DNA from: a virus
IMG/VR virus record: IMGVR_UViG_3300009183_005033
Coordinates: 1-21,315 of that record
Reading direction: 5' to 3' (one strand)
DNA: 21,315 nucleotides
Positions 1 through 19,500 of the stretch are shown piece by piece. A model generated the notes under the pieces. The model ran no database searches and was not told the origin of the DNA. It saw nothing but the letters and a program-made list of their open reading frames with translations. Positions within the stretch are counted from its first letter, which is position 1. Every line of letters starts with the position of its first letter. A program made the translations under genes and the position numbers.

Positions 1-252
1 CAAGGCGCTGAATTAGATGTACTAAAAGGATCTAAAGAAGCCTTAAAAAATTGTAAAGATTTAATATTAGAATTGCAAATAGTGGAATATAACAAAGGTG
101 CACCACTAAGAGATGAAGTAATTAAGTATGTTGAGAATTTAGGTTTTAAATTAATTTCAGGACCTTTTTGTGATAATGGCCCAGACGGAGATTATCATTT
201 TTCAAAAAACAATATTGAAATAAAAATACCTACAAATAAATTTTTTGATTAA
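1..252 (+). CDS. FkbM-type methyltransferase, C-terminal fragment
   Basis: The last 83 codons of a gene whose start lies outside the window. The fragment opens with QGAELDVLKG, which matches the conserved (D)xQGxExxVLxG segment of FkbM-family SAM-dependent methyltransferases. It continues with a strand (DLILELQIVEY) and ends at TAA 250-252. FkbM enzymes usually O-methylate sugars or small molecules, and phages and surface-polysaccharide clusters often carry them. The SAM-binding part is not visible, so activity cannot be judged. The stop codon overlaps the stop of the opposing structural gene by 3 nt. Together with the enzymes from 883 onward it suggests that the modification cassette extends to the left of the window, with two structural genes in between. 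Confidence 0.75.
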   Translation, partial: QGAELDVLKGSKEALKNCKDLILELQIVEYNKGAPLRDEVIKYVENLGFKLISGPFCDNGPDGDYHFSKNNIEIKIPTNKFFD

Positions 253-596
253 GAAGTATAAGCAGAAACTACGCCAGGATAAACAGTAATAATACCTTCC
301 ACCACACGAGTTACTGTACTATCGAGATTATTAGTTATCTCTACATCATATACCCAACGGCCATCTTCTAATAGAGCTGTTGTAGCTGGGTCTAATTTTA
401 TAGTTACAATTCCATCAGCTTCATAAACCGTAATATCAAAATATACTCTTTCATAATTATTAGAATATCCTTTGGACATTTTTCCTTGAGCCGTGTGATT
501 AGCTAAATTAAAAGTTGTACCATCACTATTTTGAACTGTAACATCACTTGAAAAAGATGCTCCAGCATCAAGATATAAATTTGCAATGTATGCCAT
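249..596 (-). CDS. Small beta-rich virion protein, BppU-N/Ig-like
   Basis: A 115-residue protein with no signal peptide or membrane segment. It is predicted to be all beta and shows the pattern of phage baseplate-upper-protein N-terminal domains: an early DAGASFSSDVTVQNSDGT segment, a middle VTIKLDPATTALLEDGRWVYD segment, and a terminal strand VTRVVEGIITVYPGVV. Such domains in tailed phages attach receptor-binding parts to the baseplate; that role is inferred from the pattern only. Its start (ATG at 594-596) lies 3 nt after the stop of the upstream 70-residue gene, so both are probably read from the late promoter at 847-854. It has no clear Shine-Dalgarno and may be translated by coupling. 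Its end overlaps the FkbM stop. Confidence 0.6.
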   Translation of the reverse strand: MAYIANLYLDAGASFSSDVTVQNSDGTTFNLANHTAQGKMSKGYSNNYERVYFDITVYEADGIVTIKLDPATTALLEDGRWVYDVEITNNLDSTVTRVVEGIITVYPGVVSAYTS

Positions 597-599
597 TTT

Positions 600-812
600 T
601 TATTCTTTTATTTCTTCTTTTGGTTCTTCTAATTTTTTTAATTCTTCATTAATTTTAGCATTATAATAGTTTGTAAGAACGTCAATCTTTTCAAGTTCCA
701 TAACTATATTAATTCTATTGCCTTGTATTTGTTGTCTTGCTATGATGTAATTTTTTAATATTTCATCAAAAGTAGTTTCGTCATATTCAGTACCATTAAT
801 TGTAATTGCCAT
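600..812 (-). CDS. Small MAITINGTEYD-type phage protein
   Basis: A 70-residue protein starting MAITINGTEYDETTFDE, followed by a charged, probably helical region (about residues 20-65) ending in KKLEEPKEEIKE. The short beta-hairpin opening plus helix resembles small marine-phage proteins with a T-I-N-G-x-E-Y start (DUF6447-like), whose function is unknown to me. An AAGGAG-type ribosome site (complement of 822-827) lies about 9 nt before the ATG and fixes the start. A consensus late promoter at 847-854 gives a leader of about 28 nt. It is first in a two-gene transcript with the beta-rich virion protein, so a tail-associated or assembly role is plausible but unproven. Confidence 0.6.
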   Translation of the reverse strand: MAITINGTEYDETTFDEILKNYIIARQQIQGNRINIVMELEKIDVLTNYYNAKINEELKKLEEPKEEIKE

Positions 813-821
813 TGTAAATCA

Positions 822-826
822 CTCCT
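822..826 (-). promoter_or_regulatory. Shine-Dalgarno for the 70-residue gene
   Basis: The minus strand reads AAAGGAGT here, about 9 nt before the ATG at 810-812. It is one of the few clear ribosome sites in the window; most plus-strand cassette genes lack one. Confidence 0.7.
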
Positions 827-846
827 TTAATTAATTTTATTAATAC

Positions 847-854
847 TATTTATA
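847..854 (-). promoter_or_regulatory. T4-type late promoter, leftward
   Basis: The minus strand reads TATAAATA, the exact T4 late promoter -10 word recognised by the gp55/gp33 sigma system. With the usual spacing the transcript would start near 841 and carry a leader of about 28 nt with a Shine-Dalgarno before the gene at 600-812. It lies back to back with the rightward promoter, with 3 bp between them. Confidence 0.8.
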
Positions 855-857
855 CTA

Positions 858-865
858 TATAAATA
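858..865 (+). promoter_or_regulatory. T4-type late promoter, rightward
   Basis: The plus strand reads TATAAATA. With standard T4 late spacing, transcription would start near 871, about 12 nt before the ATG at 883. It would serve the whole 883-5439 operon, whose genes are 10 nt apart or overlap. The word pairs with its mirror at 847-854 to form an inverted repeat around CTA. Confidence 0.8.
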
Positions 866-882
866 TTACTATATAACAAAAA

Positions 883-1359
883 ATGATAATTATGGAACCA
901 TTATTACACCTAAATTATGAACTTGATAAAAGTCTAATTTTAAAAGAATCAGAAGAAGCTAAAAAAGAGAGAAGGTTTTATACTGATACTCGTTATCCTA
1001 AAAGATTATACATAGAATGGTTATTAAGTTTATACAAAGGTAAGTATATGTATAAAGTTATGAAAGATTTTGAAGTTAAAGGACAACCTAAATTTTACTG
1101 GCTTAAACCTAATTACACTTTACCCACACACGTTGATAATGGAACAACCTGTTCATTAAATTTTTTATTAAGTGAAGATAATACTGCCATAACAATAAAT
1201 GGGAAAGAATATTTTTATAAAAATGCTTTATTAAACACCCAACAACCTCATAGTGTTAAAAACGGAAACAAAGAAAGATTGTTATTTAAGATTTCAATAT
1301 TTAATGAAAGTTTTGAGTCAGTTGCAAACAAAATAATAAAAAAAGGTTATAGTGTTTGA
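883..1359 (+). CDS. 2OG/Fe(II) oxygenase-like protein (HxD...H)
   Basis: A 158-residue protein with a jelly-roll oxygenase signature: H83-x-D85 in THVDNGTTCSLNFLL, distal H123 in QQPHSVKNG, and R132 in KERLLFKISIF, placed where the 2-oxoglutarate-binding arginine sits. Enzymes of this type hydroxylate or otherwise oxidise amino acids, peptides or small molecules using Fe(II), O2 and 2-oxoglutarate. The substrate is unknown. It is shorter than most family members and may be a minimal core. Two ATGs are possible (883 and 892); neither has a Shine-Dalgarno, and the first was taken because it still leaves a leader of about 12 nt from the promoter at 858. It is first in its operon and its end overlaps the following methyltransferase by 8 nt. 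Confidence 0.65.
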   Translation: MIIMEPLLHLNYELDKSLILKESEEAKKERRFYTDTRYPKRLYIEWLLSLYKGKYMYKVMKDFEVKGQPKFYWLKPNYTLPTHVDNGTTCSLNFLLSEDNTAITINGKEYFYKNALLNTQQPHSVKNGNKERLLFKISIFNESFESVANKIIKKGYSV

Positions 1360-2005
1360 TATAGATAAAGATATACCTGGTTGGATGAGTATAAAAGAAT
1401 TATTTATATTATCTTCACTAGCTAACATGTGTCCGGAAAATGAATCTATTTTAGAAATAGGATGTTTTTTAGGAAGATCGACAACAGCATTATATAAAGG
1501 AAAACGTCCATCTGTTCAATTAGATGTAGTGGATCATTTTCAAAGAGCAGAACTACATGAACAATATTTTAAAAAAACAAACAAGTATCCTTGGCGACCT
1601 ACTGTTGGTGACTTAGAAATATATAACGATGCTATAAAAATTGCCAATACACACGGATGGCAAGAAGCATTCAAATTTTGTATAGGAGAAGAAATTTATA
1701 ATAATTTAAATGTACATCCTACAACAAGTAGAGAATTTAGAAGAAATAAATTATATAATTTAGTGTTTATAGATGGTTCACATTTGTATGAAGATATTTT
1801 TCACGACATCAAAAAATATTCAGGTTCTCATACTTTATTAATAGGCGATGATTTTGACTTTAATTATCCAGACATAAGCAAAGCAATAAATGTATTAAGA
1901 AATGGCAGAACACTTTGGGTATTTGAAAACACAAAATTATGGGCATTAATACCCAAACTAGGACATTGGAAAGACAAATTTAATAGTAAAATGTTTTTAT
2001 TTTAA
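1352..2005 (+). CDS. Class I SAM methyltransferase (Methyltransf_24/TylF-like)
   Basis: A 217-residue protein with the order of a Rossmann-type methyltransferase. Motif I is ILEIGCFLGRST (residues 33-44), an acidic residue ends the next strand (LDVVDHF, about 58-63), a FIDGSHLYED loop lies at 139-148, and LLIGDDFDF at 162-170 looks like a metal or substrate loop. Members of this group methylate hydroxyls of sugars and small molecules. The chosen start is GTG at 1352, which keeps the usual IPGWMS lead-in before the first helix; ATG at 1385 in the same frame would lose it. The start overlaps the oxygenase-like gene by 8 nt, which suggests coupled translation. The acceptor is unknown. Confidence 0.75.
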   Translation: MFDIDKDIPGWMSIKELFILSSLANMCPENESILEIGCFLGRSTTALYKGKRPSVQLDVVDHFQRAELHEQYFKKTNKYPWRPTVGDLEIYNDAIKIANTHGWQEAFKFCIGEEIYNNLNVHPTTSREFRRNKLYNLVFIDGSHLYEDIFHDIKKYSGSHTLLIGDDFDFNYPDISKAINVLRNGRTLWVFENTKLWALIPKLGHWKDKFNSKMFLF

Positions 2006-2015
2006 TATAAAATAT

Positions 2016-2636
2016 ATGAACAAACTTAAAATATTACAAATAGATAGTAAAAATTGGAAAGAATATGAAAATGTTTTAAAGGACATTTATAAACAATCAA
2101 AACAAGACTATAGTAAAGCTTCTGAAAATATGGTTTGGGAAGATTGGGAAAATAATTCAAAATCTTTAATGAACACTTTAGTTAAACAAAAAAGATATGA
2201 CCATCCTAAAGGTATTTTCAATATAGCGATTAAAGACAATACTATAATATATTGTAGTGGTTGTTATGAAAGCGATTGGTCAAAAGATGTTTTAATTATA
2301 GGAGTAAGAACTTGGACACATCCTGAATATAGAAAAGAATGGTGGAAAGGAAATCCAATAATACCTATACAATTAGAGTTCGCTAAAAAGAATAATTACA
2401 AAGCTGTTATATTTACTTTTAATGAATACAATCTATGGCTAGCAAAAATAATGGATAGAACAACTAAAAATAAAGCAATTGTTTTAGGTCGCAAAAATTC
2501 TAACATATATAAAGATTTTTATTTACTTGATAAATATTATTTGATAAAAAATACAAAGCAAAAAATATCTGTTAATTTACTAAATTGTACTATGAAAGAA
2601 TTTCAACAAAATTATTTACCAAAAGAATATAAATGA
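2016..2636 (+). CDS. GNAT-like acyltransferase
   Basis: A 206-residue protein whose centre fits a GNAT fold: strands FNIAIKDNTIIYCSGCYE (about 68-85) and VLIIGVRTWTHPEYRK (92-107), then a helix (IPIQLEFAKKNNYK) and strand AVIFTFNE. The canonical QxxGxG/A acetyl-CoA loop is not obvious, so the donor is uncertain. The motif W-T-x-P-x-Y-R (100-106) recurs in the C-terminal half of the double-GNAT protein at 6264-7415, so the two are probably related. An N-acyl or aminoacyl transfer role would fit an amino-sugar or peptide pathway, but this is inference. It starts 10 nt after the methyltransferase, without a Shine-Dalgarno, and its end overlaps the following gene by 4 nt (ATGA). Confidence 0.5.
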   Translation: MNKLKILQIDSKNWKEYENVLKDIYKQSKQDYSKASENMVWEDWENNSKSLMNTLVKQKRYDHPKGIFNIAIKDNTIIYCSGCYESDWSKDVLIIGVRTWTHPEYRKEWWKGNPIIPIQLEFAKKNNYKAVIFTFNEYNLWLAKIMDRTTKNKAIVLGRKNSNIYKDFYLLDKYYLIKNTKQKISVNLLNCTMKEFQQNYLPKEYK

Positions 2637-3328
2637 TTGATTACAAAAAATATTTTAAAATAATAGAAGAACTTAAAACTATACCTCATTTAGATTTATT
2701 AAAACAATATGATATTTCCAAAGTTAAAAATGAAGCAAATCAAATAAAAGAATTTATAAAATATAAATCTAAAGACAATCTTTCTAAAGATCCTTACGTC
2801 AAAACTTGGTCTGGCGTATCCTTATATGGATTAAATGGTGATCAATACCAACCTTATATGGCCAATTGGCCAAAGGAATTTAATCCATACACAGAAGCTG
2901 GTATAAAAAATATGTCAATTACACCTATAGGTAAAATTTGTCCGTATATAATGTCTGTAATGCAAGACTTAGGTATTGAAAAAATGTTAAGTAGGATTAT
3001 GAGAATTTCTCCCAATTCTAGTTTAGAGTTTCATTCACATAGTTTAAAACATGGCCAACCAGATAATATATTAACAGTACAAATACCAATCTATGTTCCT
3101 GAAAAATTTAAATATGTAGTAAAAAGCATAAATGACAACAAGACATATGAAGAAACATATAAAGAAGGAAGAGCTTATATATTTAATAGTTATCATTATC
3201 ATAAGGTAGTTAATGAATCTAATAAACGCAGATTGTCAATTGTGGCTTATATGGATTTAACAGAAAACAAATGTTTAGATATAGTAGAAAATGCTATATT
3301 GAATTATAAAGGACCAAAAATATTATGA
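2633..3328 (+). CDS. Asp/Asn beta-hydroxylase-like oxygenase, copy 1
   Basis: A 231-residue protein resembling the aspartyl/asparaginyl beta-hydroxylase (Asp_Arg_Hydrox) fold. It has a lead strand RIMRISPNSSLEFHSHS (121-137), a strand ILTVQIPIYVP (146-156), the turn EGRAYIFNSYHYHKVVN (178-194) and RRLSIVAYMD (199-208). Likely metal ligands are H134 and H188 or H190, and R200 is a likely 2-oxoglutarate contact. The usual HxD acid is replaced by H136, giving H-S-H. AspH-type enzymes can work with only two histidines, so this need not mean loss of activity. The ATGA overlaps at both ends indicate coupled translation. A near-identical second copy follows directly. The substrate is not known. Confidence 0.65.
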   Translation: MIDYKKYFKIIEELKTIPHLDLLKQYDISKVKNEANQIKEFIKYKSKDNLSKDPYVKTWSGVSLYGLNGDQYQPYMANWPKEFNPYTEAGIKNMSITPIGKICPYIMSVMQDLGIEKMLSRIMRISPNSSLEFHSHSLKHGQPDNILTVQIPIYVPEKFKYVVKSINDNKTYEETYKEGRAYIFNSYHYHKVVNESNKRRLSIVAYMDLTENKCLDIVENAILNYKGPKIL

Positions 3329-3336
3329 AACTACCA
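2645..3336 (+). repeat. Tandem duplication unit, copy 1
   Basis: Nearly all of the first hydroxylase-like gene plus the first 12 nt of the following frame. It aligns with copy 2 at 3337-3998 with an offset of 692 bp at the left and 662 bp at the right; the 30-bp difference is ten codons missing from copy 2. Perfectly matching blocks include 2909-2961, 3065-3126 and 3243-3336 (53, 62 and 94 bp by hand count). Confidence 0.85.
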
Positions 3337-3990
3337 AAAAAATATTATAAAATAATAGAAGAAATTAAAACTATACCTCATTTAGATTTGTTAAAACAAT
3401 ATGATGTTTCTAAACTTAAAAATGAAGCAAATCAAATAAAAGAATTTAAATATTATGTTTCTAAAGATATTGAGGTTAAAGCTTGGTCTGGATTATCTTT
3501 AGTTGGAACAAATGGTGATCCATACAAAGATTTATCATACGATAATCCAACCCCAGAAATTAAGTGGGATAATATGTCAATTACACCTATAGGTAAAATT
3601 TGTCCGTATATAATGTCTGTAATACAAGATTTAGGTACTGAAAAAATGTTAAATAGGATTATGAGAATTTCTCCCAATTCTAGTTTAGGATGGCATTCGC
3701 ATAGTTTAAAACATGGTCAACCAGAAAATATATTAACAGTACAAATACCAATCTATGTTCCTGAAAAATTTAAATATGTAGTAAAAAGTATAAAAGATAA
3801 TACCCTATACGAAGAAACATATAAAGAAGGAAAAGCTTATATATTTAATAGTTATCATTATCATAGTGTTTTTAATGAATCTAATGAATATAGATTAACA
3901 ATAATGGCTTATATGGATTTAACAGAAAACAAATGTTTAGATATAGTAGAAAATGCTATATTGAATTATAAAGGACCAAAAATATTATGA
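3325..3990 (+). CDS. Asp/Asn beta-hydroxylase-like oxygenase, copy 2
   Basis: A 221-residue paralogue of the preceding protein with the same fold markers: RIMRISPNSSLGWHSHS (111-127), ILTVQIPIYVP, the H178-x-H180 turn and R190. It also has H-S-H (H124, H126) in place of HxD. From residue 83 onward it is almost identical to copy 1; residues 41-82 differ strongly and are ten residues shorter, so a substrate-facing N-terminal part may have diverged. Its first residues MKLP match the start of the next gene (3987) rather than copy 1, because the duplication carried the start codon of that gene. ATGA overlaps at both ends. A small reading frame on the opposite strand inside it is not considered real. 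Confidence 0.65.
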   Translation: MKLPKKYYKIIEEIKTIPHLDLLKQYDVSKLKNEANQIKEFKYYVSKDIEVKAWSGLSLVGTNGDPYKDLSYDNPTPEIKWDNMSITPIGKICPYIMSVIQDLGTEKMLNRIMRISPNSSLGWHSHSLKHGQPENILTVQIPIYVPEKFKYVVKSIKDNTLYEETYKEGKAYIFNSYHYHSVFNESNEYRLTIMAYMDLTENKCLDIVENAILNYKGPKIL

Positions 3991-3998
3991 AACTACCA
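3337..3998 (+). repeat. Tandem duplication unit, copy 2
   Basis: Second copy of the unit at 2645-3336. The last 94 bp (3905-3998) are identical to 3243-3336, covering the end of the hydroxylase-like gene and the ATGAAACTACCA that starts the next one. An A-tract (CCA followed by AAAAAATATT) at the junction could be the microhomology used to form it. Confidence 0.85.
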
Positions 3999-4754
3999 GT
4001 ATGGGCTAATATAAATTTTGATTTTGATCAACAAAAAATAAAAGAAGAATTGCTAAATAATAATATTTTTGATAAAGGCGTGGTTGCAACGACTGATTAT
4101 AATAATGAAGGTCGTAGTCGTTGGGATCCAAATGGAGATATTTTTCCAGAAGAAATTTTTAAAAAGAATAAACTTATACATCACTATAAACAAAAAAACG
4201 GTGAAAGAGAATTAGTTAAAGGTCAATATAATACCTTTCAAATGTTAAATTTAACTTATTTACCAGAAAAAGAAATAACAAAACAACAATCGTGGGAAGG
4301 AAGTTTAGAAAAAAAAGATAAACGACCTTTATGGATTAAATATAGACAACCTTGGTCTTGGAGAGAGGATTTAAATATACCTTATACAAAAAAAATTATT
4401 GAATCTTTACCTATAGAATATGTTTTAACTGTTCGTTGTATATTGCAAGAACCACCTAGTATAGGCGTTGTACATAAAGATAATGGCCCTATTACAAATA
4501 AAGATTTCTTTGATAGTGGTTTTTGTTCTTTAACGTTAAACATAGCAGATGGTGGAGCAAATTTATGGGCTCAAAGTTATAAAACAGAAAAAAAGTTTAA
4601 AATAGATGAAAGCAAATATAAAGCTTGGCACTTTGATGATGCTTGTTTACATTGCACGTCTGAAGTAAAAAGTCGTAGAATACAATTGAGAATATTTGCT
4701 AAATTAAATAAACCCTACACTGAAATATTGGATTTAAAAAATGCTGAATATTGA
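3987..4754 (+). CDS. 2OG/Fe(II) oxygenase-like protein (HxD...H...R)
   Basis: A 255-residue protein. The C-terminal half has the oxygenase core: H163-x-D165 in IGVVHKDNGP, a strand CSLTLNIADGGANLW (180-194), H222 in AWHFDDACLHCTSEV, and RRIQLRIFAKL (230-240) with arginines placed to bind 2-oxoglutarate. The N-terminal 140 residues are polar and tryptophan-rich, and I do not recognise them; they may form a substrate lid. It follows the duplicated hydroxylase-like gene with a 4-nt ATGA overlap, and its first 12 nt are the ones duplicated upstream, so it was already the downstream neighbour before duplication. It shares little sequence with those copies beyond the fold signature. Substrate unknown. 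Confidence 0.6.
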   Translation: MKLPVWANINFDFDQQKIKEELLNNNIFDKGVVATTDYNNEGRSRWDPNGDIFPEEIFKKNKLIHHYKQKNGERELVKGQYNTFQMLNLTYLPEKEITKQQSWEGSLEKKDKRPLWIKYRQPWSWREDLNIPYTKKIIESLPIEYVLTVRCILQEPPSIGVVHKDNGPITNKDFFDSGFCSLTLNIADGGANLWAQSYKTEKKFKIDESKYKAWHFDDACLHCTSEVKSRRIQLRIFAKLNKPYTEILDLKNAEY

Positions 4755-5439
4755 AAACTATAAAAAATTATTGTTTTGTCCTTTAGATTTTCCAATCCCT
4801 CCTGAAGTGGATTATAATAAATTTAATGAATGGCACTTAGAACAATTAGAATATAATAAAAAACATAATAAGACAGCCTTAGTAGCTAATGGAAAAGATG
4901 ACTATCCTTGGGAAGTAAGTTGGGCATTATGGTGGAACACTTATGATAAACCAAATCCTTGGATATGTGATTTTGATAAAAAATTTCCTGAATTGATAGA
5001 ATATATAAAAGAGTATCCTTTTGTACAAGCAAAAAGTATTAGTTTTTTAAATCAAAAAGAAAGTAGAGATGTTTATTTACATACTGATCCTGATAATAGG
5101 TGGGGTATGAGGTTTTATTTAAAAAATGGTTTGGGTGAAAAACTATATTTTGTTAAAAGTTTAAAACCAAGAGAAGAACGTTTAAAAACAATGAAAGATG
5201 GTAAGTACAATGATCTATGGGAAAATAGTCAAAAAGAAAAATTATATGCCAAATTTCCTAATCAAAGATGTGCTTGGATGTTAAACAGTATGGATGCTTT
5301 TCATGGAGTTGAAAAAAATCCTAGTCCAGTAGGTAATAGAATTAGTTGTGTACTAATAGGTGATTATGATTATAAAAAATTATTTGAGTTATTTGATCGC
5401 AGTATTAAAAAATACAAAGACTATGCTATTTGGTATTAA
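4741..5439 (+). CDS. 2OG/Fe(II) oxygenase-like protein (HTD...H...R)
   Basis: A 232-residue protein with H114-T-D116 in VYLHTDPDNRWGMRFYL, distal H188 in SMDAFHGVEKNPSP, and R200 in GNRISCVLIGDYD: the order and spacing of a jelly-roll Fe(II)/2-oxoglutarate enzyme. A charged insertion (about 140-170) separates the two halves of the core. The first 60 residues are rich in aromatic and proline residues and are not recognised. The start overlaps the preceding gene by 14 nt. The end overlaps the oppositely oriented desaturase by 14 nt, so no terminator separates them. It is the last gene of the first plus-strand operon. Its specific reaction cannot be named from sequence. Confidence 0.6.
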   Translation: MLNIENYKKLLFCPLDFPIPPEVDYNKFNEWHLEQLEYNKKHNKTALVANGKDDYPWEVSWALWWNTYDKPNPWICDFDKKFPELIEYIKEYPFVQAKSISFLNQKESRDVYLHTDPDNRWGMRFYLKNGLGEKLYFVKSLKPREERLKTMKDGKYNDLWENSQKEKLYAKFPNQRCAWMLNSMDAFHGVEKNPSPVGNRISCVLIGDYDYKKLFELFDRSIKKYKDYAIWY

Positions 5440-6232
5440 TTTTTTTATCAGTTCTAATTAAATCTATAATAAAAGCAGTTATATCAAATTCCCACCACTT
5501 TTTTTTAAACGTATAACTTCTTGTATTATAGTGATGATTATTATGCCATCCTTCTCCCCAAGTCATAAAAGCAACTAAAGGATTATTAACAGAATCGTCT
5601 TTAATAATAAAATTTTTATATCCACCTGGAAACCATTTTGAATGATTTATATAATTGCTTAGTACACTAGACCATACTTGACATACTATGGGCATAGCAA
5701 ATAAAAAAACAAATCCAGCTGATCCAAATAATAAGGTTAACAATAATGCCCAAACAATTAGTATTAAAAAATAATAACTATGTAAAAAGAAATGATATCT
5801 ATTAACTATTAAATCTCTTACTGTAAATTTATTACCATTCGTTATATAATTAGGAAACAACACTTTCCAACCTTGATATTTGGGACTGTGTGGATCGTGT
5901 TCATCATCACTATGTTTATGATGTTGTCTGTGTATTGCAACCCAACCTATACTAGAACCAGTACCACCTACACAACCAAAAAATGTGAATACGTATTCTA
6001 ACCATTTAGGCATTTTAAAACTTTTATGGCTTAAATATCTATGAAATGTAAGAGTAATACCTAAACAACCAGTTATAAAATAACAAAATAGGCCAATTAA
6101 CCACCACTGCAAACCATAGTTACCAAATATAAAAGCTAACAATAATGTAATTGTTAATAATATTTGAATAAATGTAAAATATCTTGTATTTGCAATAAAC
6201 AGTTTTTTCATGTTTTTATATAAAGTTGACAT
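5426..6232 (-). CDS. Acyl-lipid/acyl-CoA delta-9-type fatty acid desaturase
   Basis: A 268-residue membrane enzyme with all three histidine boxes of the stearoyl-CoA desaturase class: HRYLSH (64-69), HRQHH (101-105) and HNNHH (230-234), plus the extra NYINH (193-197) that contributes to the di-iron site. Hydrophobic spans at about 22-62 and 148-190 would form the four membrane helices. It has no cytochrome b5 domain, as in bacterial and cyanobacterial DesC enzymes of similar length. It would introduce a double bond into host fatty acids and raise membrane fluidity or alter lipid precursors. It is the only minus-strand gene inside the plus-strand cassette and has its own late promoter at 6255-6262. 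All key residues are intact, so it is probably functional. Confidence 0.9.
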   Translation of the reverse strand: MSTLYKNMKKLFIANTRYFTFIQILLTITLLLAFIFGNYGLQWWLIGLFCYFITGCLGITLTFHRYLSHKSFKMPKWLEYVFTFFGCVGGTGSSIGWVAIHRQHHKHSDDEHDPHSPKYQGWKVLFPNYITNGNKFTVRDLIVNRYHFFLHSYYFLILIVWALLLTLLFGSAGFVFLFAMPIVCQVWSSVLSNYINHSKWFPGGYKNFIIKDDSVNNPLVAFMTWGEGWHNNHHYNTRSYTFKKKWWEFDITAFIIDLIRTDKKINTK

Positions 6233-6237
6233 AATAG

Positions 6238-6245
6238 TATAAATA
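6238..6245 (+). promoter_or_regulatory. T4-type late promoter, rightward
   Basis: Plus-strand TATAAATA. The predicted start is near 6251, about 13 nt before the ATG at 6264, which supports that ATG as the start of the double-GNAT gene. It faces the leftward promoter at 6255-6262 across 9 bp. Confidence 0.8.
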
Positions 6246-6254
6246 GTGTATACT

Positions 6255-6262
6255 TATTTATA
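6255..6262 (-). promoter_or_regulatory. T4-type late promoter, leftward, for the desaturase
   Basis: The minus strand reads TATAAATA. The predicted start is near 6249, giving a leader of about 17 nt before the desaturase ATG at 6230-6232. The predicted start points of the two facing promoters are only about 2 bp apart. Confidence 0.8.
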
Positions 6263-6263
6263 C

Positions 6264-7415
6264 ATGATTACTAGGCGACTAAATTATAACGATCTTGATA
6301 AAATTGATGAATTGATAGATTTACGATGGAAACAAGTACATAAAAAAAGAAGTTCAACTCACAATATTACATTAAAAAAAAGAATTAGAGAATATATATT
6401 ATTGTCTAATAATATTGATAATAATAAAAACATTGAAGGCCTAGGACAAGTATTTGGATGTTTTGATGATGAAGGTTTTTTGATATCCTTTTTAACTCAA
6501 AAATTTTGGGAAAAAATGCCTATTCACTATCTAGGCAACATGACAGTTAGGCCAAAAGTTTCTAATTTATATAATATTGAATCTATAGGATTAGGTAAAT
6601 GCTGGGACGATGCTGTTAAATTTGCAGAATCAAATAAATTTTATCAATGGTATTGGATTACTGAAATAAGAGGATGGAATAAAAGAGAAGAAGAATGGTT
6701 TAAAAATAGTTCAGCATTTAAAAAATACCATATTTTTATAGATAGTATGTATCATAAAGATGAAGTAGGAAAGTTTAAGTATCAAAATATGATGTTAGGA
6801 GAAGAAGGAATAGCAAATACTACAGTTGCAATTAAATATGCTATATTAAAACCTAAATTTTTACACAATATGTTTCAACAAAAAGGCTATTTAAAAGATG
6901 ATTTTATTCCTATTCAATATAGTAACATAGATGAAGAACAAATAATCTACAAAGAAACAAATGATTTTAATGAAATTGTTAAAGTTACTAAAGATGAAAG
7001 TAATATGTTAGTTGAAAAAGAATATTATCAAAAAAACTTTCCAGATATTGCAGAAGGAGAACACAAACATTTTGGCGCTTACAAAAACGAAAAATTGATA
7101 GGAACCAGTTCAATGATTAAATATTATGATAATGAAGATAATAAAAATAAAATATATCATTTATGGTCTTGGACACAACCTAATTATAGACGCAAAAAAA
7201 TTTGGTTAAATTTAATGAAAATCAAAGCAAACTATGCTAAACAAAATAACTGGTGTGAAGATACCACTCTAAATATTGTTGCTGTTTCAAAAGAAGATAA
7301 CCGATATAAAAATATAGGTTGGTCTAAAGCCTATGAAATTGACAAAACATATAAAGAAAAATCATTAAAAAAAACCATATGGTATAGTTTATGGAAAAAT
7401 TATAAAAATATATGA
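6264..7415 (+). CDS. Two-domain GNAT-like acyltransferase
   Basis: A 383-residue protein that appears to contain two GNAT-like units. The N-terminal unit (about 1-180) has VFGCFDDEGFLISFLTQKFW followed by HYLGNMTVRPKV. The C-terminal unit (about 225-365) has HFGAYKNEKLIGTSSMIKYY (269-288), then IYHLWSWTQPNYRRKKIWLN, a helix, and a final NIGWSKAY of the type that closes a GNAT fold. The W-T-x-P-x-Y-R motif (302-309) also occurs in the protein at 2016-2636. The ATG at 6264 was chosen because the alternative GTG at 6246 lies before the predicted transcript start. It is first in the second plus-strand operon. Acyl donor and acceptor are unknown; an aminoacyl-transferring role is another option. 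Confidence 0.55.
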   Translation: MITRRLNYNDLDKIDELIDLRWKQVHKKRSSTHNITLKKRIREYILLSNNIDNNKNIEGLGQVFGCFDDEGFLISFLTQKFWEKMPIHYLGNMTVRPKVSNLYNIESIGLGKCWDDAVKFAESNKFYQWYWITEIRGWNKREEEWFKNSSAFKKYHIFIDSMYHKDEVGKFKYQNMMLGEEGIANTTVAIKYAILKPKFLHNMFQQKGYLKDDFIPIQYSNIDEEQIIYKETNDFNEIVKVTKDESNMLVEKEYYQKNFPDIAEGEHKHFGAYKNEKLIGTSSMIKYYDNEDNKNKIYHLWSWTQPNYRRKKIWLNLMKIKANYAKQNNWCEDTTLNIVAVSKEDNRYKNIGWSKAYEIDKTYKEKSLKKTIWYSLWKNYKNI

Positions 7416-7425
7416 GCAATTGATA

Positions 7426-8457
7426 ATGTTTGAATATACAGAAAATAATCATTTTAAATTTGGTTACGATAATCAATGGTTTATTGATAGGCCAAACGTA
7501 AATAATAAATGGTCGGTTCAATATGGTCAGTGTAAAAGGCCTGTTCAAAATTGGAGAGAGGAATGTAAACTAGCCGCAAGCAAAATATACGATCAAAGAA
7601 AAGGGTTACCTATAGATATTTTGTTTTCAGGAGGAAAAGATAGTGAAATAACATTAAGGTCTTTTTTAGAAATTAAAGTGCCAGTTAATGTTCATTTTGT
7701 TGATTATGATTTTTATAATATGTACGATAAAAGATGGGCAACAAAAATCTGTGAGTTTTTTAATATAAAACTCAATATACACAATTTAGACATAAGAAAA
7801 TTTTGGCGATCTGATGAATGTATGCAGATAGCTAATTCAAGTAAATCAGTTAGTCCTCAATTAATTTCTCAACAATGGTTGATGGGTCAAGTAGACGGTA
7901 TTCCTGTATTAGGTTCAGGTGAATGTTATACTGCCAGAAGTGATATAGCTATTCAAAAAAAAATTGAAAAAGGACATAGAAATTTGACTAATGTTAATTG
8001 GGTATTAGTAGAAAGAGAAAAAATTGCTACTTGGTATCGGTATTTAATATCAAATAATAGACCAGGAATTCCTGGTTTCTTTCAATATACACCTGAACTA
8101 ATGTTGTCTTTTTTAGAAGATCCTATATGTCAAGATTTGCATAGTAATATAACAAAAGGAAAATTAAGTAATTCTAGTTCAAAGTCTAGTATATGTTTAA
8201 AACATTGGCCTGAAGTTAAAAAAAGATATAAAAAAACAGGATTTGAAAATTTACGTGATGAGGATTATGTATTAAGAACAATATTAATGAAAAAATATGA
8301 AAATTATCATTATGAATATTGGAGTGAAGTAAATGAATTAATAGAGTATCTTAAAGGAAATACAAACAAGATGCCAGACAATATGGCTCCTAATATAACA
8401 GATCCCTGCGATTCTATTACAACCTACTATAATAATATAAAAGATGAACAATTTTAA
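7426..8457 (+). CDS. PP-loop ATP pyrophosphatase, asparagine-synthetase-like
   Basis: A 343-residue protein with a clear N-type PP-loop, DILFSGGKDSEITL (SGGKDS at 68-73), followed by the expected alternating strands and helices (VNVHFVDYDF, LNIHNLDIRKF). There is no N-terminal glutaminase domain and no catalytic Cys2, so if it transfers an amide it must take ammonia or an amine directly. Such enzymes adenylate a carboxylate or carbonyl. Related stand-alone forms amidate sugars in O-antigen clusters or close lactams. The ATG at 7426 is preferred over an in-frame TTG at 7420; neither has a clear ribosome site. It lies 10 nt after the GNAT gene and overlaps the next gene by 14 nt. The family assignment rests mainly on the PP-loop. 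Confidence 0.65.
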   Translation: MFEYTENNHFKFGYDNQWFIDRPNVNNKWSVQYGQCKRPVQNWREECKLAASKIYDQRKGLPIDILFSGGKDSEITLRSFLEIKVPVNVHFVDYDFYNMYDKRWATKICEFFNIKLNIHNLDIRKFWRSDECMQIANSSKSVSPQLISQQWLMGQVDGIPVLGSGECYTARSDIAIQKKIEKGHRNLTNVNWVLVEREKIATWYRYLISNNRPGIPGFFQYTPELMLSFLEDPICQDLHSNITKGKLSNSSSKSSICLKHWPEVKKRYKKTGFENLRDEDYVLRTILMKKYENYHYEYWSEVNELIEYLKGNTNKMPDNMAPNITDPCDSITTYYNNIKDEQF

Positions 8458-9097
8458 ATTCTTAAAATATAATTTTTCAATTTTAAAGAAAGAAGCGGAA
8501 GATGATTTATTATTAAAATATTCTCATCAAGCACATTTTGGATATAACGTCTTTGCAGAAAATATAGAACATTATATTAATGAAGAATTGCTAAATTTAT
8601 TATTGGATAATAATTTAAAACCAAAATTAATTGTTTTATTTAAAGGAATCTCTCCAAGTAGAAATACAGAAAAAGCATTATTACATTCTGACGTTTATTA
8701 CGATTTTAAAGATAAAAAATATAAATTTCATTATTGCGGATTAAATCAAGAATTGTATAATACTAAAGCTATCTTTCACTGGTGGGAACCAATAAACGCA
8801 AAACCAGTTTATCCTTCTATAGCTAATATCGTAAATTACGATTTAAAATATTTGGATGGTGTACATTACGAATCAAGATCAAAATATTTTAAGAATCCAG
8901 AGGAAAAATTTAAATTGTTAGAATCTACCAACTATGATAATAAAAAAATAATTTTGGCAAGAACAGATATACCTCACAGCGTAATATATGACACCAATTT
9001 AGAGAATCATCCTAGAGTTTCTGTTAGTCTTAGATTTGATACATCATTATTTAATAGTTGGAATGATGTTATAAATAGATTTGAAAGATTATTATGA
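8444..9097 (+). CDS. 2OG/Fe(II) oxygenase-like protein (HSD...H...R)
   Basis: A 217-residue protein with H81-S-D83 in KALLHSDVYYD, distal H178 in RTDIPHSVIYD, and HPRVSVSLRFD (189-199) carrying R191 and R197. This matches the HxD...H...R layout of jelly-roll Fe(II)/2-oxoglutarate enzymes. The stretch between the two halves is long and includes FHWWEPINAKPVYPS. It lies between the PP-loop enzyme (14-nt overlap) and the unknown protein at 9094 (ATGA overlap), which suggests a joint pathway with the ATP-dependent enzymes. The core is plausible, but overall similarity to named families is not evident to me and the substrate is unknown. Confidence 0.55.
   Translation: MNNFKFLKYNFSILKKEAEDDLLLKYSHQAHFGYNVFAENIEHYINEELLNLLLDNNLKPKLIVLFKGISPSRNTEKALLHSDVYYDFKDKKYKFHYCGLNQELYNTKAIFHWWEPINAKPVYPSIANIVNYDLKYLDGVHYESRSKYFKNPEEKFKLLESTNYDNKKIILARTDIPHSVIYDTNLENHPRVSVSLRFDTSLFNSWNDVINRFERLL
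9070..9077 (+). promoter_or_regulatory. Internal T4-type late promoter
   Basis: TATAAATA inside the last codons of the oxygenase-like gene. The predicted start near 9083 leaves an 11-nt leader before the ATG at 9094, the same spacing as at 858 and 6238, which argues against chance. It would boost the 9094-10942 gene pair separately. Confidence 0.6.
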
Positions 9098-9816
9098 CAA
9101 GTGAAGAATTTAAAAATCAAGTTAAATATAAATCAATAACTTCTGAAACAAATGCTATTGATATCAAAAACGATCCTTCGGAAGTTCATTCTTTATTTGA
9201 TAATGAAACAAATAGATTATTAGCTGTAAGTAGATGGACATATACTATATCCGCATTAAACGAAGCTAACGAAAACACCTATTCAAGACATTGCCTTAAT
9301 AAAATATATGATCTGAAAAGTTCCAATTTTGAAGTAATATCTACAAAATGTTTTTTGGTTCGTTTCTATAATGATAAATGGGAAAAAGATGAAGATAATT
9401 TTACTTTTGATGAATTATATAATTTTCACTTAAACATAGAAAAGGCAGCAGTTTTAGATTATTTAAATTTTAGAATAAATTTACATAGACGTTCTATGCT
9501 TAATGGATTACTTTTACAAGAACCAATTTATAATTTTAAACAACAAGAAGCTGAAGAAATACAAAAAAATTCTGAAATTGTTGATGAAACTAATTTTCCT
9601 TTTTTAAGAGAATACGCCGAATCAAAAAATATAGATTTAAAAACTGCAGCAAAAGAAGTTTTAATACAAATAAAAATATATAAAACAAGATTAAATAATA
9701 CAGAAACTATGCGTTTAAAATATAAAAATTTAATAAAAGAATGTAATGATATTACAAAAATGGATTCTATATTTAATCAATTTTTACGTGAAAGCTCAAT
9801 GTATGCCAGAATATAA
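9094..9816 (+). CDS. Unknown protein with helical tail-like C-terminus
   Basis: A 240-residue protein I do not recognise as a whole. The N-terminal part (1-140) is mixed alpha/beta with no clear catalytic motif. Residues 168-215 form an amphipathic helical stretch (FPFLREYAESKNIDLKTAAK and onward, ending in a charged ETMRLKYKNLIKE helix). This resembles the P-L-L-x-x-E-A-x-x-x-G-x-S-x-x-x-L-A module at the C-terminus of small tail or fibre-associated proteins in many phages. If that resemblance holds, this is a tail-related gene inside the enzyme cassette. It has its own late promoter at 9070 and overlaps the asparagine-synthetase-like gene by 14 nt. No membrane segment or signal peptide is visible. 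Confidence 0.5.
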   Translation: MTSEEFKNQVKYKSITSETNAIDIKNDPSEVHSLFDNETNRLLAVSRWTYTISALNEANENTYSRHCLNKIYDLKSSNFEVISTKCFLVRFYNDKWEKDEDNFTFDELYNFHLNIEKAAVLDYLNFRINLHRRSMLNGLLLQEPIYNFKQQEAEEIQKNSEIVDETNFPFLREYAESKNIDLKTAAKEVLIQIKIYKTRLNNTETMRLKYKNLIKECNDITKMDSIFNQFLRESSMYARI

Positions 9817-10942
9817 TCTTATATGGTATAGTGCTGTTGATATATTTCATAGCACAAGAGGTACGCATACACCAATATTTCAAAACAAACCTGGTTTTAA
9901 TTTTATACGTCATGTTATTAAATTTTTTGGTTCTCAAATTTCAATGATGGATAGAACTGAAACAATAAAAGTTCCTATAAATTGTAAAATTTTGCCTTTT
10001 TTAAAATTACCAGAATTTAAAAAAGTAAACACAAATTTTGAAGAACTATGTGAAAAAAGAGCAAGATTGTTACTAGACAAAGCTATATCAACAAATAGAA
10101 AACTAACAATAATGTATAGTGGAGGTATTGATAGTACATTAATTATGGTTAGTTTATTAAAAGTTGCAACAGACAAAGAACTAAAAGAGCATGTTATTGT
10201 TTTATTAACACATGCCAGTATTTTTGAAAATAAGAATTTGTTTAAAAACTATATATTAAAAAAATGTAATATAGAAAGCACTTTTGATTTTACTCACTTT
10301 TTAGGAAATAACAAATATATAGTTGTAACAGGCGAAACAGGAGATCAATTATTTGGTTCTATGGCCACTAGAAACTTTTTTATTAAATATGGTAAAGAAT
10401 TTGTTTTTGGTGAAGCTTCATATGATAAAATAGAAAGAATATTTTTAGATACACATTTAACAGATGAAAATTTAGGCAAAAAAGAAGCTAGTAAAGTAAT
10501 AATGCCTTTATTTAAAGTTGTTGAAAAAGCACCTTTAAAGATAACAAGTGTTTATCATTTTTTTTGGTGGTTGAATTTTACATTAAAATGGCAATCAGTA
10601 TATACAAGAACATTAGCATACACAAAACAAAAGTATGAAAAAACTTTAAAAATGGAAGATAACTATTTTGCTTTTTTTAGTGATGAAGAAATGCAACTAT
10701 GGGTTATGAATAATCCCGATAAATTAATTAGAGATGATTATAAATCTTACAAATATATTGCAAAAGACATAATATACAAATTTGATAAAAATGAAGATTA
10801 TTGGAAAAATAAAGTTAAATGGGGAAGTTTAGCTGGTGTTTTTATGACACGTGTTCCAGCAAGATACATAGATGATAAAATCAATTTTGGCAGAAATGAC
10901 ATACCTGAAAGTATCTGGAACGATAACAATTCCTTTGTATAA
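9803..10942 (+). CDS. Asparagine-synthetase-like enzyme without glutaminase domain
   Basis: A 379-residue protein with the synthetase half of the asparagine synthetase family. The ATP PP-loop is LTIMYSGGIDSTLIM (SGGIDS at 106-111) and the second conserved motif is VTGETGDQLFGS (175-186). The 100 residues before the loop replace the glutaminase domain and lack an N-terminal catalytic cysteine (the start is MPEYNLIW). Enzymes of this build form an AMP-ester on a carboxylate and then an amide or lactam. ATG 9803 is chosen over upstream frame extension to 9746 because it gives the same 14-nt overlap as other genes here and removes a hydrophobic, unlikely leader. Product unknown; sugar or amino-acid amidation is the simplest idea. 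Confidence 0.75.
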   Translation: MPEYNLIWYSAVDIFHSTRGTHTPIFQNKPGFNFIRHVIKFFGSQISMMDRTETIKVPINCKILPFLKLPEFKKVNTNFEELCEKRARLLLDKAISTNRKLTIMYSGGIDSTLIMVSLLKVATDKELKEHVIVLLTHASIFENKNLFKNYILKKCNIESTFDFTHFLGNNKYIVVTGETGDQLFGSMATRNFFIKYGKEFVFGEASYDKIERIFLDTHLTDENLGKKEASKVIMPLFKVVEKAPLKITSVYHFFWWLNFTLKWQSVYTRTLAYTKQKYEKTLKMEDNYFAFFSDEEMQLWVMNNPDKLIRDDYKSYKYIAKDIIYKFDKNEDYWKNKVKWGSLAGVFMTRVPARYIDDKINFGRNDIPESIWNDNNSFV

Positions 10943-16518: not shown

Positions 16519-19500
16519 TTATGCTGCTAAAGCTATTCCTCTTAAATCTCTAATAATAGGAGGATAAGAAGAAATACTACCTTTCATAACTATTTTAATT
16601 TGAAATGCCGTAAATGTGTTTATACCTGAAACTGAATATTTGTATTCTTTAAATACGTTATCATTTTCTGCAGGTGTAACACTTATATCTTCTGAACCAT
16701 CTGTATTAAAAGGTGTCCAAGATAAATCGTTTATGTTTCTTACTTCTTCAGCACCTGTAACTCTAAAGAAAACTAAAACTTCTGAACTTGATCTTACGTT
16801 CTGAGTCAATCTAACATCCAAAGCAGTAGATTTATTTTCTAAAGTAATTGGTCTTGTTACGTAAACAGCGGCTGATGATGTTCCTGTAGGACTTGTATCA
16901 GCTACAAAATTTGGCGTATTGCCTGATGTAGGATTATTTAATCTATTTTGTACAGCAACCATACTCATACGTTTAACATCTAATACTGGTGATATTTTTG
17001 TACTAGATGTTGTCATTGTTAAATTTACAAATAAAGATTTACCACCTAACATCTCATTTGTTTCATTTATAGAACTTGCAACAAGTTTAGGTGAAGTAAA
17101 GTAAATATTATCTCCAGGTATTACGCTTATAGCGTTGGTAGCACTTGTTAAACTAAATTCAGTTTCAGAACCGTGAATTGATTTACCTGAAGTTGGTCTC
17201 ATATCATATGTGATTGAAGTACCGGGTACTGTAAGTGTAGATATGTTTAAACAAGATAAATCAAATAATCTATTTTGTGTGGCCGTTACAGTTGTGCCGC
17301 CAACATCTCCTGTAGCAGTTGCCGTACCAGCTGTTGTAATATCATAACTATCTAAAGTTACGTTTGAAATACTTGTATATGTTCCATTAATATTTGCTGA
17401 AGAAATTCCGTTATATGTACCTGCTGCCACGCCAGCTATTGTAACATTATTATTTGAACCGTGCATTCCGTGATTTTTATGAAATACTCTTATTACTCCT
17501 GAAGTGTTTGTTGTTCTTAATGAATTATTTGGTAAAGTTTTTACTGGAACACTATCATTTACAAGTGTTACTGTACCTGTTACATTACTAAATTCTGCAC
17601 GATTAATTTTAAATTTTATATCTTCTTCTTGATCGGCCGTCCAAGTTGAACCGTTTTGTGATTTAAAGAAAACACCGGCATAAGGGTTTTCAGATATTGT
17701 TCTGTTTGAACCGATTTGTGTATCTCCCAATCTTGCAACAAAGGCGTTATAACTATTACAATTACTTAATAAACAAAAACTGTATTCAGTTTTTTCTTGT
17801 AAATAAACTGGAGAAGGAAAAGTAAATTTAGTTGATGTACTTGCATCATCGCTAATATTAACTGAACTTGGATTTAAAACAACTTCACCAAAAGGCACAA
17901 TTGTACGAGAAGGATAACCATTTACAACTTCTCTTATTTGCATTGTAACAGGAATATTAGCATCTTTTGATTGAAAATAACACTCAATAGATGTTACAAA
18001 AACACCATCAGTGTCATCAATTAAAAATGTTTGTGCAATAGGATCAATCCAAGCTACAACTTCTGTTGTTGTTCTAGTTGATGTTCGTGTAATATTTCTT
18101 GTATCATTTACATCTTGTCTAACTAATTGTGGTTCTCTTGTTGACACAATTGTATTTTGCACCGTTTCTAAAGAACCTTTAGCTATATAATCTGCTTCAG
18201 CAGAAGTTTCAACGTCTGTTGTTGAATTTGTAACTGAACTTGTTAATCTGAATACTCTTTGACCGGTTCTCCATCTAGGATTAGAGTCGTTAGTTGCATC
18301 AGGTATAGCAAAAGTTCCTGATACAGCACCATTGGCGTCTGTAACCAAATTACCACTTAATGAACCACCTGTTGGTGTAACATATGCTGTGATAGCTACA
18401 TTATCAAAATAAGGATAAACTCTTGTATTTGGTTTCATTCTTGTAGCAGTAAAATTAATTGTTCTACTTCTAATAAATGGTATGAAAGCTATATTTAATA
18501 CTCTATCACCTAAAGATGTTCTAACAACCTGAGGAACTAAAGATGATCTAATACCTGTTCTAGTTGAAGAAACTGCTTGAGTAGTTGTTGTTGTAACGTC
18601 ACCGAAATCTACTGTCCATCCACCTGACCTTCCTCTTCTAACATTTGATACACTTGAAGTTTCTACTGGCGTACCTTGCCAAAAATCTTGCCATTCATTC
18701 CATACTGTATCTATTTCTATACTATCTAAATTAGGATTACCTAAATTAGCGGCCATTGTATCAAAGGCACCTTGTTCATTAATTAATAAATCAGGAACTC
18801 TATTTGTTTCTTTCCATTCATCGCCTGGAGGATCAAGGGTAACTGAACCTGACCAAGTAAATACATTAAAAGGATTTACATTTACGTATTTGCTTGCATA
18901 TGGTTGATTTATAATTGTAGTTTCAGTGTAAGGTAATGTAATTAAATCTCCTGTTTTTTGATAGTTGGCTGCTGTTCTATCAGCTGCTAATATTGCTGTG
19001 CCATCATCATCTGCTTCAATTAATTGTACAGACTCAGAATTAAATAAAGGTCTAACATAACCGCCGGCCATATCCATAGAAACTTTGTAATCTAAATTTC
19101 CTACATCTCCTATTCCGTGGCCTGTAAAATTATCTACAATAAATCCGTTTTTAAACCTATCAAAACCTTCAGCGTCTTGTATTTGTAAAGATTGTGCTTG
19201 TGTTTCTAGTAGAGATAATTGTGTATAGTACTCTACATTTTCAATTCTTTTTTCTAAACGGCCAATATCTCTCATAGTATATCGTTTATTGTCTTGTTTT
19301 TTAATTATAAGATCAGACGTATTCAAAGTATATGCTTTTAAAAATATAGTATATAAATGCATAGCATTTTCAAGTCCTTTTGGAATTTGTGGACTTAAAG
19401 AGCCGGCACCTTTAAGAACTCTAAACACTCCATCTTTATCTAAAAATATTTTATCAACTCTAGGTAAATAAAATTCTAAATCTGTAGTTACATCTGAATT

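Follow-up and report, generated by a model that had tools for sequence, protein, structure and literature searches.

Tandem hydroxylase genes with a chimeric start, placed on a neighbor's start codon in a pelagimyophage cargo island

According to our analysis, the window, that is, the whole stretch of 21,315 bases of a virus record considered here, contains an old tandem duplication of a hydroxylase gene in which the second copy has a chimeric start, and the pair is located at an insertion site on the start codon of the following gene (gene 3987, named after its first position). The mechanism is of a known, ordinary kind, and what is unusual is the completeness of the record. We deem it fairly probable that a hydroxylase gene was first inserted and that a tandem duplication then extended into gene 3987, giving copy 2 the start of its neighbor.

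The two hydroxylase copies are adjacent, have the same orientation, and are each other's nearest relatives (tree support 100/99), with 80 to 81% protein identity and 86% DNA identity over 189 codons, start and tail left out; the duplication is far beyond chance. The copy 1 tail with the start of copy 2 recurs as the copy 2 tail with the start of gene 3987, in a perfect 94-nt repeat at an offset of 662, and the bases on both flanks mismatch. The sequence-only reading had reported this repeat, its end right after a start shared by copy 2 and gene 3987, and the dissimilar start of copy 1, and all of these observations are exact: ATGAAACTACCA is present at 3325 and at 3987, the repeat ends right after it, and copy 1 opens with ATGATTGATTAC (MIDYKKYF), unlike copy 2 (MKLPKKYY). 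After the ATG, the copies agree at only 1 of 9 nt, and the next stretch, where homology sets in at an A-tract (2645 in copy 1, 3337 in copy 2), is about 94% identical. The duplicated unit measures 692 nt and the second unit (3337 to 3998) 662 nt, and the 30-nt gap between them corresponds to the ten-residue gap in protein length (231 versus 221 amino acids). Each start overlaps the preceding stop as ATGA, from copy 1 to copy 2 and from copy 2 to gene 3987.

Features of the hydroxylase pair and its surroundings in the window
Feature	Position	Strand	Remarks
Upstream gene	2016..2636	+	Stops at EYK here; in L003 and L043-L048 ends ...EYN[VD]TSMG
Hydroxylase copy 1	2633..3328	+	231 aa, MIDYKKYF...; PF05118 Asp_Arg_Hydrox, Pfam E 5.6e-9; long branch, 0.23
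Hydroxylase copy 2	3325..3990	+	221 aa, MKLPKKYY...; Pfam E 6.9e-10; pLDDT 87.6; branch 0.026; nearer family consensus
94-nt repeat, occurrence 1	3243..3336	+	Copy 1 tail plus first 12 nt of copy 2
94-nt repeat, occurrence 2	3905..3998	+	Copy 2 tail plus first 12 nt of gene 3987
Inferred duplicated unit	2645..3336	+	Repeat onset 2645/3337; exact-repeat end 3336/3998
Chimeric start of copy 2	3325..3342	+	ATGAAACTACCA fused to A-tract AAAAAA (copy 1 A-tract 2645-2650)
AAAGGA, Shine-Dalgarno-like	3308..3313	+	Within copy 1 tail, 11 nt before copy 2 start
AAAGGA, second occurrence	3970-3975	+	Before gene 3987, likewise 11 nt from start
Downstream gene (gene 3987)	3987..4754	+	255 aa, MKLPVWAN...; in relatives M[LIF]P[VI]WA, no K (alignment)
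Segment missing in relatives	2633..3993	+	Insertion at gene 3987 start codon; edges +/- few nt

In the profile search, both copies match PF05118 (Asp_Arg_Hydrox) at 36.5 and 39.4 bits, compared to a curated cut-off of 22.6; in the family alignment, 19 of 21 members match the profile, at E values up to 0.001. The AlphaFold model of copy 2 shows the double-stranded beta-helix fold of these oxygenases, with fold matches to the nucleoside-antibiotic beta-hydroxylase 7v4m (Z 16.1), to L-proline cis-4-hydroxylase (4p7w; Z 14.2 over 182 residues), and to human AspH (Z about 13); the model of the gene 3987 product was too poor for use (pLDDT 49). H124, H126, and H180 are invariant in the 21 family members and R190 is present in both copies, with the correspondence to AspH residues judged by eye; metal and cofactor roles for these His and Arg residues are suggested by the AspH pattern. 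Both copies probably act as hydroxylases dependent on Fe(II) and 2-oxoglutarate, and their substrates may differ. A PHROG hit linking copy 2 with "DNA endonuclease V" (E of 0.002) was dropped, since the PF05118 and fold evidence is stronger. The residue before the HSH motif (window 3029-3040 and 3691-3702) is F in copy 1 and W in copy 2. Among other family members, a 441-aa frame on the minus strand of L021 holds a hydroxylase in frame with a longer C-terminal part, and the sole cellular match is one Bacteroidia MAG contig.

The large gene at 16519 encodes VrlC, with 65% identity to VrlC of Pelagibacter phage Mosig, whose island adjoining VrlC also carries Asp_Arg_Hydrox and desaturase genes. 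The window represents a T4-type pelagimyophage cargo island beside VrlC, namely the hypervariable host-recognition cluster known from these phages (PMC7029224). The island is mosaic: between the window and L003, the relative aligned over window positions 1 to 9264, dS ranges from 0 to 0.34 gene by gene, and blocks of near-zero divergence alternate with blocks of 10 to 17%, again gene by gene. In the genes at 883, 3987, 4741, and 8444 (window 883-9097), patterns resembling HxD...H...R were noticed by eye, with no significant Pfam match, and 2-oxoglutarate oxygenases may be numerous in the island, which also carries a fatty acid desaturase (5426-6232). The 4741-type gene (window 4741-5439; L043 6109-6807) lies near the desaturase, and its orientation flips between lineages.

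The hydroxylase site is empty in the relatives. L003 matches the window at about 95% DNA identity on either side (window 1-2632 aligned to 2370-4998 and window 3994-9264 to 5002-10287), with window position 2632 joined straight to 3994; no hydroxylase precedes gene 3987 in L043-L048, where its protein is about 77% identical, and the site is also empty in L005, L007, and L049-L054 (about 66%). The empty-site joints of the three lineages read AAAGGAATACAATG-TTACCAGTATGG, AAAGGAATATAATG-ATACCAGTATGG, and ATAATATG-TTTCCTATATGG. These empty sites indicate that the whole hydroxylase pair is an insertion at the gene 3987 start codon, one gain in the window lineage being simpler than three losses. Furthermore, the upstream gene runs 20 nt into gene 3987 in genomes of the L003/L043 type and is truncated earlier in the window; from this loss of overlap, the insertion sits on the old start codon, and copy 1 holds the old start position. 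The sequence-only reading had looked to relatives with a single copy followed by gene 3987; when this comparison was run, all relatives found carried zero copies at this position, and the IMG/VR searches gave no genome with one hydroxylase before gene 3987. Close relatives of either copy were detected neither in IMG/VR nor in the phage records, and the N termini of family members at 30 to 46% identity are too variable to compare with the copy starts.

In the alignment, the gene 3987 product begins with M-[LIF]-P-[VI]-W in the three related lineages and never with MK, so that its ancestral start lacked the K, and the K codon (AAA) is new in the window. Since the gene starts with ATG[T/A]TACCAGTATGG in L003 and L043-L048, only TACCA within the shared 12-mer is ancestral to gene 3987 and ATGAAAC is new; the latter is probably the tail of the insert (ATA TTA TGA AAC), joined to gene 3987's own TACCAG. 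A scan for other genes starting with MKLP[VI]WA found none. The earlier claim that the duplicated unit ran into the downstream gene and borrowed its start therefore stands in part: the unit does end inside the first codons of gene 3987, of which TACCA is ancestral, but ATGAAAC was not the neighbor's old start.

With the tail left out, dS between the copies is 0.20 and dN is 0.15, while between the window and L003 the upstream gene has a dS of 0.20 and gene 3987 one of 0.18; by this measure the duplication is about as old as the split between the window and L003. The tail shows 0 differences in 27 codons. In a permutation test of identity runs, this run gave a p of 0.0006 over all sites and of 0.03 to 0.07 without the hypervariable stretch, so that the perfect last 94 bp are only mildly unusual given the divergence, and the idea that the repeat firmly proves a recent gene conversion was dropped. 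Recent homogenization of the tail is possible, and the tail may also be under constraint, since it contains the AAAGGA and ATG that the following gene requires. The copies have diverged unequally: by branch length copy 1 is about nine times faster, and copy 2 agrees with the outgroups at 22 sites compared to 10 for copy 1. In residues 42-92 of copy 1, dN (0.52) exceeds dS (0.20), in an alignment made uncertain there by indels; part of this stretch is a low-confidence loop in the model.

In the history that we propose, a cargo gene of the Asp/Arg-hydroxylase type would have entered the island precisely on the start codon of gene 3987; copy 1 would thereby have taken over the old start position, and the insert tail (AAAGGA...TTATGAAAC), joined at the ancestral TACCAGTATGG, would have supplied gene 3987 with a new ribosome-binding site and first codons. 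A tandem duplication would then have spanned the segment from hydroxylase codon 5 (the A-tract at 2645) to codon 4 of gene 3987 (3336), leaving copy 2 to open with the MKLP of gene 3987 fused in frame to KKYYK. By inheriting AAAGGA and the ATGA stop-start overlap, copy 2 would have been translatable at once and coupled to copy 1, which would afterwards have diverged the faster of the two. A duplication later than the insertion fits the time available, given that the copies and the flanks show equal dS.

Several observations count against this history. Neither a single-copy intermediate nor a close relative of the copies was found in IMG/VR or the phage records; the junction is nearly without microhomology, compared to the 6 to 10 bp usual in the experiments with T4; and the equal length of MIDY and MKLP is a coincidence. 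The perfect tail hints at a later homogenization which a plain duplication does not need, and the body of copy 2 is more ancestral, so that its MKLP start could be original. In the opposite direction of borrowing, the MKLP start would belong to copy 2 itself, and recombination or gene conversion that carried the copy 1 tail and copy 2 start over the copy 2 tail and gene 3987, resolved at the shared TACCA, would have brought ATGAAAC to gene 3987. Such a single conversion would account at once for the perfect 94-bp repeat and for the new start of gene 3987, and it agrees with the derived start of gene 3987, which lacks the K in all relatives, and with copy 2 being nearer the outgroups. However, it requires that both starts contain TACCA by chance and leaves nine non-homologous nt of copy 2 without an origin, and the support for homogenization weakens once the variable region is removed. 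If the duplication ran into gene 3987, TACCA in the copy 2 start needs no coincidence, and hence the direction given in the sequence-only reading is favored; we regard the reverse as unlikely.

Somewhat less likely still is that the genes were not duplicated in place but arrived by recombination from another phage, as two diverged alleles or a ready-made pair, with the tail taken from one allele. An identical tail on copies that differ at 14% of sites would suit such an origin, as would the mosaic island, with its gene-by-gene range of dS, and the related hydroxylases found at other positions and in other orientations in L005 and L043. Yet each copy has the other as its sister and IMG/VR gave nothing closer, their dS equals that of the flanks, as expected from duplication in place, and the repeat ends inside gene 3987, so that the joint was made at this site. 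The remaining alternative, an assembly artefact at the repeat, had been raised as an objection to the 94-bp identity. The contig is a metagenomic assembly, and an exact repeat of 94 bp is able to mislead short k-mers, but the copies differ by substitutions and indels, reading frames are intact throughout, and a path swap at the repeat cannot make the joint of CTACCA to AAAAAATATT after the hydroxylase tail; we consider such an artefact extremely improbable.

Returning to the duplication in place, the two sides of the junction between CTACCA and AAAAAA overlap exactly by 0 to 1 nt, or by 3 nt (TAC) when an imperfect switch is tolerated, which makes the A-tract, earlier suggested as the microhomology, a weak candidate. 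A later change in the copy 1 start may hide further junction homology.

Tandem copies of this family also occur elsewhere: L019 (3795-5989, minus strand) carries three tandem hydroxylases, each start overlapping the preceding stop, and their sequences vary in the same region as the window copies. This phage is unrelated and its genes belong to another part of the family, and the triple array is independent. The residue before HSH is W in the first of its copies and F in the second and third, and this possible parallel W/F change beside the active site in the window and L019 arrays is suggestive only. A second start-codon seam is seen upstream of the hydroxylase site, where L047 (2589-3383), compared with L043 (3394-3401), has an extra gene inserted on the start codon of a gene that, in L043, comes directly after the preceding one; the product of the extra gene is a weak PF05118 match, below cut-off, and we count the seam in favor of the proposed history.

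Taken more broadly, start codons might be recurrent seams in this island, with cargo swapped exactly at the next gene's ATG, tails carrying the ribosome-binding site and ATGA overlap so that insertions and duplications are born translated, and hydroxylase copies diversifying through a hypervariable loop; we put this forward tentatively, as a possible but doubtful generalization. The window provides a nucleotide-level record of a phage gene gaining a new start, in which an insertion and a duplication each have an end within the first codons of one neighbor, and it suggests a rule, open to testing, by which mosaic phage islands could take up genes while keeping translation intact. The paralogues, one of which evolves about nine times faster, with three copies in an unrelated phage, are a good case for studying the targets of phage Asp/Arg-type hydroxylases.

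Among known systems, the closest parallel is the segmental amplification of dmd-tifA in T4 (PMC9391042), likewise a tandem repeat in a T4-type phage formed by recombination at very short homologies, with ends that vary from case to case. Tandem amplifications in T4 arise at homologies of 2 to 10 bp, typically 6 to 10 bp, in recent copies under laboratory selection (PMC9391042), whereas the present pair is old and diverged, has 0 to 3 nt at the junction and no 6- to 10-bp homology at the unit ends 2645 and 3336, and, unlike the dmd-tifA amplification, has a unit end within the start of the next gene. The pelagimyophage study places a hypervariable host-recognition cluster next to VrlC and lists the Asp/Asn beta-hydroxylase as pelagimyophage core (PMC7029224); our island shares with it the location beside VrlC, the mosaic cargo, and the hydroxylase, while the main text of that study describes no duplication, tandem copies, or paralogues. 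As for the proteins, the profile score above the curated cut-off and the fold match of the copy 2 model to 4p7w place them with PF05118, and they differ from the solved members of this type by an identity of only about 15% and by the variable stretch at residues 42-92, which is modeled partly with low confidence.
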